Positions 37,704-50,697 of a DNA stretch of 64,000 nt are shown piece after piece. The notes under the pieces are model-generated. The model did no database searches and was not told the DNA's origin. It worked only from the letters and a program-made list of their open reading frames with translations. This DNA comes from a bacterium BMS3Bbin10 (GTDB lineage Bacteria > Pseudomonadota > Alphaproteobacteria > Rhizobiales > Methyloligellaceae): the NCBI GenBank assembly GCA_002897995.1, contig BDTT01000114.1, forward strand, positions 1-64,000, read 5' to 3'. The translations under genes and the position numbers were made by a program. Position 1 is the stretch's first letter; every line of letters starts with the position of its first letter.

Positions 37704-37807
37704 GCTCCCCTACCGCTTCGCTATATGAGGGGGGTTTTGCTCCCCTACCGCTTCGCTATATGAGGGGGGTTTTGCTCCCCTGCCGCTTCGCTGCATGAGG
37801 GGGGTTG
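37704..37807. repeat. Three tandem 35-bp hairpin units, two followed by T-tracts
   Basis: GCTCCCCTACCGCTTCGCTATATGAGGGGGGTTTT x2, then GCTCCCCTGCCGCTTCGCTGCATGAGGGGGGTTG. Confidence 0.92.
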
Positions 37808-48417: not shown

Positions 48418-49479
48418 TCAGACCCACCCCTGAAGCTCGCGCTCAACCACGCTGCGGATCACCTTCATGCCTTCATCTGAATCGTTCAGACAGGGGATGG
48501 CGGCGAAATTCTGGCCGCCATGTTCCCTGAAGATATCGCCATTCTCGATCGCGATCTCTTCCAGGGTCTCGACGCAGTCGGCGGCGAAGCCCGGCGTGAT
48601 GACAGCCAGATTTTTCACCCCCTCCCGCGCCAGGGTCTCGACGGTTTTGTCCGTATAGGGCCTGATCCATTGCGCCTTGCCCATGCGCGACTGAAAGGTC
48701 AGGCGCAGGAAATCCTCGCTCCAGCCAAGTTTCTCGCGCAACGCCCGCATGGTCGCGGCGCAATGGTTTTGATAGGGGTCGCCTTTTTCAATATATTTTA
48801 CCGGCAGGCCGTGAAACGAGGCGAGGATGACGTCCGGCTTCCATTTGAGTCGTCTCACTTCGCGTTTGAGAGACGCGGCCAGCGCGCCGATATAAACCGG
48901 GTCGCCGTAATAGGGCGGCACGGTGCGGACGGCCGGCTGCCAGCGCATGGCCTCCAGCGCCTCGAACGCCTTGTCATAAGCGGTCGCGGTCGTGGCGGCG
49001 GCATATTGCGGGTAGAGCGCGAACAGCAGAATACGGTCGCACCCCCGGCTCTTGAGCGCCTCGATGCGGCTCCTGGTTGACGGGTTGCCATAGCGCATGG
49101 CCCAGTCGACGACGATCCTGCCGTTCCCCTTCAGGGCGGCGCCGAGCTTTTCCCCCTGAGAGCGCGTGATGGTGCGCAACGGCGATTCGTCAAGGGTCCT
49201 GTTCCAGATCGAGCGGTAGGCCTCGCCGGAGGAAAACGGGCGCCTCAAAAGGATTGGCCCATTGAGAATAAGCCACCATTTGAGCCGGTTTTCCTCAACC
49301 ACGCGCCGGTCCGACAGGAACTCCTTCAGGTACCGCCGCATGGACCAATAATCCGTCGCGTCCGGCGTGCCGAGATTGAGGAGCAGCACGCCGACCTTGC
49401 CCGAGGCCGGTTCTGCCTGGCCCCGCGGCACAGGTTCCGCATCGGAACGAAAACCACTGCCGCGCCGAGTTTCGCTCAT
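48418..49479 (-). CDS. hemH: Ferrochelatase
   Basis: KVGVLLLNLGTPDATDYWSMRRYLKEFLSDRRVVE, FSFHGLP-type motif (LASFHGLPVKYIEKGDPY), GFAADCVETLEEI. Confidence 0.96.
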   Translation of the reverse strand: MSETRRGSGFRSDAEPVPRGQAEPASGKVGVLLLNLGTPDATDYWSMRRYLKEFLSDRRVVEENRLKWWLILNGPILLRRPFSSGEAYRSIWNRTLDESPLRTITRSQGEKLGAALKGNGRIVVDWAMRYGNPSTRSRIEALKSRGCDRILLFALYPQYAAATTATAYDKAFEALEAMRWQPAVRTVPPYYGDPVYIGALAASLKREVRRLKWKPDVILASFHGLPVKYIEKGDPYQNHCAATMRALREKLGWSEDFLRLTFQSRMGKAQWIRPYTDKTVETLAREGVKNLAVITPGFAADCVETLEEIAIENGDIFREHGGQNFAAIPCLNDSDEGMKVIRSVVERELQGWV

Positions 49480-49637
49480 CTCACCCTGTCTCCATTGTCC
49501 AATATCATTCCTGCGGCCTTGATAGATCAAGCGCGCGGACAACCCAAGAGGCAGCATATGCAAAACCCTCGCTGAACATTGCCTGCCGGGGACGCTTGCA
49601 AGCGCGGTGGCGCCAAGCTAGAAGCCGCTTTTTATAT

Positions 49638-49778
49638 GTCCTACCGCTTGCGCTATATGAGGACTTTTTATATGTCCTGCCGCTTGCGCTTATGAGGACT
49701 TTTTTTATTTGTCCTACCGCTTCGCTATATGAGGACTCCCCCGCTATTATATGTCCTACCGCTTGCGCTTATGAGGAC
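49638..49778. repeat. Four tandem hairpin units directly upstream of the methyltransferase start
   Basis: GTCCT-ACCGCTTGCGCTATATG-AGGAC and variants at 49638-49664, 49674-49699, 49711-49736, 49753-49778. Confidence 0.92.
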
Positions 49779-49785
49779 TCCCCCC

Positions 49786-50550
49786 ATGGGATGGGACCCG
49801 GTTCAATATCTCGCCTTTGGCAGTGAGCGGCTTCAGCCGGCGCTCGATCTGCTCGCCCGCGTACCGCTCGATGCCCCCGGCGCGGTGGTCGATCTGGGCT
49901 GCGGACCCGGCAATGTCACGCGCGCGCTCAAGGCGCGCTGGCCGGAAGCGAAAATCACCGGCGTCGACGGCTCGCCGGAAATGCTGGCGCGGGCCCGCGG
50001 CGAAAACCCGGGCATCCAGTGGGTCGAAGCGGATATGAATGACTGGAAACCCGGCGCGCCGGCCGATCTGATTTATTCCAACGCGGCGCTGCACTGGCTC
50101 GACGATCATGACGCGCTGTTTCCACGCCTCATGGACAATATCGCACCGGGCGGCTTTCTGGCCGTTCAGATGCCGCGCAACTGGGCGGCCCCGTCGCATA
50201 GCTGCATCACGGGGACCGTGCGGGACGGTCCCTGGCGGAACGCATTGGAGCCGCTGCTACGCCCGGGGCCCTCGCACGCTCCCGATGCCTATTACGACAT
50301 CCTCGCCCCTCGCACATCGAGCCTGGCGATCTGGGAAACGGAGTATTGCCAGATCCTCGAAGGCGACAACCCGGTCGCGGAGTTTGTGAAAGGCACGCAG
50401 CTCAAACGCTTCCTCGATGCGCTCGATGAACCGCTACGCGGCAACTTCGAGAATGAGTATCGCGCGCGCATCCTCGCCGCCTATCCCAAACGCAAGGACG
50501 GGAAAACGCTGTTTCCCTTCCGCCGGCTGTTCCTGCTGGCCGGAAAATAG
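49786..50550 (+). CDS. tam: Trans-aconitate 2-methyltransferase
   Basis: MGWDPVQYLAFGSERLQPALDLLARVPLDAPGAVVDLGCGPGNVTRALKARWP. Confidence 0.93.
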   Translation: MGWDPVQYLAFGSERLQPALDLLARVPLDAPGAVVDLGCGPGNVTRALKARWPEAKITGVDGSPEMLARARGENPGIQWVEADMNDWKPGAPADLIYSNAALHWLDDHDALFPRLMDNIAPGGFLAVQMPRNWAAPSHSCITGTVRDGPWRNALEPLLRPGPSHAPDAYYDILAPRTSSLAIWETEYCQILEGDNPVAEFVKGTQLKRFLDALDEPLRGNFENEYRARILAAYPKRKDGKTLFPFRRLFLLAGK

Positions 50551-50572
50551 TCCAACCGCCCGGAACGGGCCT

Positions 50573-50670
50573 GGATCGCTTCATGTTTTGATGGAATCAA
50601 AACCGTGATCCGGGCTTTGTTTATGCGTATCGTTTTTCCGGTAAACGGTTCCCGCCTGCCGGTGATACGC
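50573..50670 (+). repeat. Dispersed alphaproteobacterial intergenic repeat, copy B
   Basis: GGATCGCTTCATGTTTTGATGGAATCAAAACCGTGATCC...GTGATACGC, inverted relative to copy A. Confidence 0.75.
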
Positions 50671-50697
50671 ATCAGGGCCTAGGTCATGAAATTCTTT

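Follow-up and report, generated by a model that had tools for sequence, protein, structure and literature searches.

A tam-like gene (trans-aconitate methyltransferase-like) in the 64,000-nt stretch of DNA analysed here (the window) is preceded by four hairpin units, the last of which ends in a Shine-Dalgarno (SD)-like sequence just ahead of the start codon. The locus raises the question whether these hairpins form a leader controlling the gene, as the initial annotation proposed, or lie there for another reason.

The array before the tam-like gene

The relevant features of the window are:

37707-37802, +: second array of the same family (locus 1), three units, CCCCT/AGGGG stem, 270 nt to the next called start
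49608-49628, +: putative old upstream region GGCGCCAAGCTAGAAGCCGC, matching GCGCCCAGGATAGAAGCCACCC directly before the ATG in the empty congener G003
49629-49637, +: T-rich linker TTTTTATAT, 5' part of unit 1, assigned from the T-richness upstream of first or only units genome-wide
49638-49664, +: hairpin unit 1, GTCCT/AGGAC stem, CCGCTTGCGCT core
49674-49699, +: hairpin unit 2
49711-49736, +: hairpin unit 3, core identical to the family consensus CCGCTTCGCT
49753-49778, +: hairpin unit 4, 3' arm AGGAC SD-like, 7 nt before the start codon
49779-49785, +: spacer TCCCCCC between hairpin and start codon
49786-50550, +: tam-like gene, start supported by congeners

The array consists of four hairpin units of 26-27 nt (49638-49778, + strand), spaced 36, 37 and 42 nt from start to start, with a TRF score of 183. 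Their placement before the gene was confirmed as initially annotated, and so was the distance: the AGGAC of the last unit, with its AGGA at 49774-49777, ends at 49778 and the ATG begins at 49786, leaving 7 nt in between. Units 1, 2 and 4 carry one extra apical-loop base (CTTGCG vs CTTCG; 49644-49654, 49680-49690 and 49759-49769), and on the opposite strand these extra-base loops read GCAA (GNRA type) vs a GNA triloop. Just 3' of the gene, 50570-50690 is part of another dispersed repeat (CGCTTCATGTTTTGATGGAATCAAAACC ... GATACGCAT); sequence resembling it is found beside the array in L066, and L071 contains AAGTGGGAACCGGTTTT-type repeats.

The encoded protein matches the trans-aconitate methyltransferase models over the full length with 271 bits, below the cut-off of 297, so 'tam-like' is the safe name. 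The upstream in-frame ATGs inside the repeats are real and extend the ORF to 49729-50550. Since the congener proteins start at the position of ATG 49786 (MAWDP/MTWDP), the extra upstream residues represent repeat read-through and not an established N-terminus.

The tam site is empty in three congeners (G001, G003 and G004), which are 74-79% identical in protein, leaving the exact junction uncertain by a few bases. In G003, GCGCCCAGGATAGAAGCCACCC is followed directly by the ATG; in the window, GGCGCCAAGCTAGAAGCCGC is followed by the array and then by TCCCCCC-ATG. The array thus stands between the old purine-rich SD region and the ATG, with the AGGA of the element now at the SD position. Most likely, the element inserted between SD and start codon and took over as ribosome-binding site. 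Ribosomes would then use the AGGA of the last unit, and its partial pairing would lower tam translation modestly.

A dispersed family with a free but paired stem

About 28 such arrays exist in the 3.18-Mb genome. The full unit pattern of the GTCCT type occurs 17 times exactly and 0 times when the pattern is read backwards, so the array greatly exceeds chance expectation. With a looser core pattern and a covariance model made from 46 different units, 92 matches (E<=1) are obtained. Units are found single or head to tail with a period of 35-38, isolated single copies making up 134 of 203. In each hairpin, the 5-bp stem is free in sequence, whereas the apical core (R-YCGC-loop-GC...TG) is conserved. 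The T fraction is 0.63 upstream of first or only units in this genome vs 0.38 after last units, and 0.53 vs 0.27 elsewhere. As the T-rich stretch thus lies on the 5' side, the replicating unit is a T-rich tract of 9-10 nt plus hairpin, about 36 nt in total. The contig ends G000:C6:1-191 and G000:C16:36717-36960 look like pieces of a single long array (38-nt period) and probably reflect an assembly break at the repeat.

In Rfam, nothing credible was found in 49400-50000 up to E=5 (a chance lncRNA match only, E=2.6), and no family was placed at the element in 12 loci. A full-text literature search returned no paper with the unit sequence, although subscription papers are mostly outside such a search and an earlier description is possible. 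The suspicion that this is an undescribed family thus appears justified from both searches.

As had been noted for the two arrays of the window, the stem changes in a compensatory manner, and this turned out to be general across the family. In the own-genome alignment, 98.8% of the cells are paired and three outer pairs are changed on both sides, and the covariation score is reached by 0 of 500 shuffles; the inner 2-bp helix is invariant there and hence uninformative. Over all loci, 281 of 319 units are fully paired, and nine stem types (GTCCT, GCGCT, CTCCT, GCCCT, CCCCT, GGCCT, ATGCT, GCTCT and ATCCT with their complements) are fully Watson-Crick paired. Among units other than GTCCT/AGGAC, 68 of 106 are fully paired, compared to a mean of 19 and a maximum of 33 in 1000 shuffles. 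With an open pattern permitting mismatched arms, 90 of 98 units in viral contigs are paired and 8 are unpaired or partly paired. These tests indicate a constraint on stem pairing, with the stem sequence itself largely free. In Robiginitomaculum, a longer inner arm (CGCCTAGCGG) fits an inner hairpin; in this rarer subfamily the outer-stem covariation is not significant (6 of 23 fully paired vs 5.1).

Seven of the eight genomes in the genus, the source genome included, have matches to the element, as do most genomes of the family, and one genome of another family in the order holds 56 matches. In a class-wide sample, strong matches are scattered over families in 11 of 289 genomes. Named carriers are Erythrobacter, Porphyrobacter, Qipengyuania, Robiginitomaculum, Caulobacter, Cognatishimia, Aliiroseovarius and Tateyamaria, and metagenome bins labelled Euzebyaceae/Actinomycetota (the label of the record only) carry it too. 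Many copies lie on phage-like or prophage contigs, for instance ahead of genes that match tail protein, minor tail, tape-measure and glycoside-hydrolase families; blastn against the phages collection gave no match. Fourteen plasmid records contain the element, and all five examined have it in or next to rRNA operons. Within 23S rRNA, it is present in helix 9 (Cereibacter, Rhodobacter and Sulfitobacter records) and in a second helix (Aliiroseovarius, Cognatishimia and Cereibacter) which by sequence context appears to be helix 45; relatives without the element have a short loop at those helices. One 23S rRNA gene of Cereibacter sphaeroides (L291, CP031752.1) has two copies, at 1502-1528 and 2672-2698, with a GTCCT stem in helix 9 and a GCGCT stem in opposite orientation in the second helix.

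A local palindrome duplicated in tandem by chance, without broader significance, would account for the variation of array copy number by tandem change. This reading is refuted by about 90 copies in the genome and by near-identical units in many other genera and in phages, leaving it a negligible probability.

Site C86:38214 is filled in G000 and G006 and empty in five congeners, the two flanking genes overlapping as TGATG in at least two species when it is empty. At C29:26697, G000 has a single unit and G006 has five, whereas three other congeners are empty. In Robiginitomaculum S012, a unit sits inside copies of another repeat, with intact unit-free copies alongside. This landing site is a second repeat of roughly 60 nt (GCATTTTTAGCAAAAGTGGGAACCGGTTTTGCGGCCAAAAATGCGACAG) with several nested hairpin copies, seen at L109, L135, L140, L147, L153, L156, L174, L176 and L184. 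Taken together, the empty and filled sites, copy number, patchiness, 23S rRNA copies and phage contigs mark the element, by sequence comparison, as a small mobile palindromic element; we infer the transposition step from the comparative sites only. The analysis found no mobilising gene and did not prove a target-site duplication. A search for an autonomous partner retrieved 19 hairpin pairs 350-3000 nt apart, several of them in rRNA.

Placement at starts and stops and the regulatory readings

Placement was analysed for 191 deduplicated arrays against uniform placement in the same gap; genes were called by a simple home-made codon scorer and the loci are not phylogenetically independent, making all z-scores and p-values approximate. 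At 4-10 nt before a facing start, 25 arrays are found vs 14.5 expected (z 3.4, approximate), equal to 25 of the 127 arrays facing a start, with no excess at 0-3 or 11-16 nt. The source genome alone has no start-codon enrichment (2 of 25 observed vs 1.5 expected). In viral contigs, AGGAC/AGGGG arms occupy the 4-10 nt position in 11 of 26 cases and AGCGC/AGGCC arms in 6 of 64 (Fisher p 7e-4, approximate), the AGGGC arm being intermediate (5 of 30). Start-codon placement depends on the SD-likeness of the arm. With a GTCCT/AGGAC or CCCCT/AGGGG stem, either strand ends SD-like, in AGGA or AGGG. At L114, L133 and L151, the element precedes gloB (hydroxyacylglutathione hydrolase) in three genera, once in the opposite orientation, suggesting that this gene was hit independently more than once.

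As RNA, the single hairpins before tam are predicted to be weak (-3.9 to -6.0 kcal/mol). The GG of AGGA is paired at all leader lengths folded and, after in silico mutation of the 5' arm, is still paired, now with downstream bases; the stability of the 176-nt leader does not clearly exceed expectation (z -1.43). Because the GG is paired even with the 5' arms mutated and the leader z-score is only -1.43, the predicted sequestration is not specific. In these models, SD sequestration as such is plausible, its specificity is not supported, and neither is regulation by SD pairing.

A cis-regulatory leader, with hairpins evolved to sequester the tam SD in a signal-responsive way (thermometer-like or protein-bound), would explain the AGGA in the 3' arm at the correct spacing, its two G's paired in all folds and the conserved stem pairing. 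It would explain neither the missing array at tam in three congeners nor the occurrence of the same unit inside rRNA helices, behind stop codons and at a distance from starts, and the low energies of the single hairpins and the pairing of the GG despite mutated 5' arms also speak against it, making this reading unlikely. From the initial leader claim, the AGGA at the SD position with its two G's paired in every fold is retained; the dedicated tam leader is not, as the genome holds about 28 such arrays and tam lacks one in three congeners.

Termination control, the other function initially considered, was not borne out, as the T-run lies 5' of the unit and is usually missing after the last one. 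T-runs do follow units 1 and 2, and 24 arrays lie 0-3 nt from a facing stop vs 11 expected, as tandem intrinsic terminators or an RNA-stability/processing hairpin might. Yet the 5-bp stems are weak and the T-tract precedes the unit, which leaves little probability for this reading. The intrinsic terminator, defined by a stable hairpin plus U-run, was rejected, TTTT being present behind just 5 of the 28 last units.

Overall reading and known systems

The explanation that we prefer, at a probability of roughly 70%, is that a very small non-coding mobile element has formed the tandem array and that one of its SD-like arms has replaced the tam ribosome-binding site. Copies would insert as single units and then grow into short tandem arrays. 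They would persist where they are harmless, i.e. in gene spacers, just after stops, just before starts, in ribosomal spacers and in 23S helix loops. A copy with an SD-like arm between the SD of a gene and its start codon could become the new ribosome-binding site.

A bolder extension is tentative and, in our estimate, has clearly less than an even chance: the hairpins may represent a new mobile class of about 36 nt that needs just an apical core and a paired stem, moves possibly through an RNA or ssDNA intermediate, and spreads through rRNA, phages and operon junctions by bringing its own both-strand ribosome-binding site, enabling it to settle between SD and start, where an insertion would otherwise do harm. 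If true, the smallest bacterial mobile element shrinks to about 36 nt with one structural demand, and in Alphaproteobacteria certain intervening sequences of rRNA and repeats of gene spacers become one thing. It would also offer a concrete route for insertions to rewrite translation starts, the incoming element supplying the ribosome-binding site, and account for start-site hairpins otherwise mistaken for riboregulators. The fixed core with a free stem would then be a handle for finding the mobilising enzyme.

Among known systems, REP/REPIN elements with RAYT (PMC3116915) and Br-REP1/2 of Bradyrhizobium (PMC5082802) are likewise short dispersed extragenic palindromes that form hairpins in ssDNA or RNA, occur in ordered tandem clusters and have evidence of mobility. 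Mobilisation by a RAYT (Y1) transposase, as a REP/REPIN-type element, would fit the short, palindromic, extragenic sequence in tens of copies, the sometimes ordered tandem arrays as in REPINs (PMC3116915) and the single Y1_Tnp (PF01797) match in the source genome. However, Y1_Tnp is absent from G006, G008, G009, G019 and G020 despite 18-36 copies each, and the RAYT association was rejected on account of such copy-rich genomes. The basic unit is moreover a single asymmetric hairpin, found alone or head to tail, and not an inverted doublet, rendering this origin improbable. Unlike REP/REPIN and Br-REP1/2, the element has a T-rich 5' tract and a covarying free stem, is independent of RAYT, is also found in 23S rRNA helices and is near-identical across many genera and phages.

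At start codons, the closest parallel is SAS/extended SAS (ESAS) of Cluster K mycobacteriophages and Cluster EF Microbacterium phages (PMC3203893, PMC7302621), conserved repeats that contain an SD, occupy the ribosome-binding position in front of many genes and have inverted repeats close by. These have a different sequence, are phage-specific, mostly in one orientation and tied to starts, whereas the element is bacterial and phage-borne, found in both orientations and has its SD inside a hairpin arm. Most of its copies are off starts: the ribosome-binding position that defines most SAS copies is occupied in 25 of 127 cases overall and in 2 of 25 in the source genome.

For rRNA, intervening sequences (IVS) are known at 23S helices 9, 25 and 45, each said to replace a tetraloop (PMC4990558). 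They are described at helix 9 in Alphaproteobacteria and at helices 25/45 elsewhere (PMC4990558; Evguenieva-Hackenberg and Klug 2000 via PMC6121014). The element resembles them as an extra hairpin in place of a 23S helix loop (helix 9 and apparently helix 45); insertion in such a loop is seen for the rDNA copies only, the copy in the window being outside rDNA. IVS are described as rRNA insertions, whereas the element is also a dispersed genome and phage repeat. The element behaves like a REP-type mobile palindrome and, at some starts, like phage SAS; in rDNA it is, by position, an IVS.
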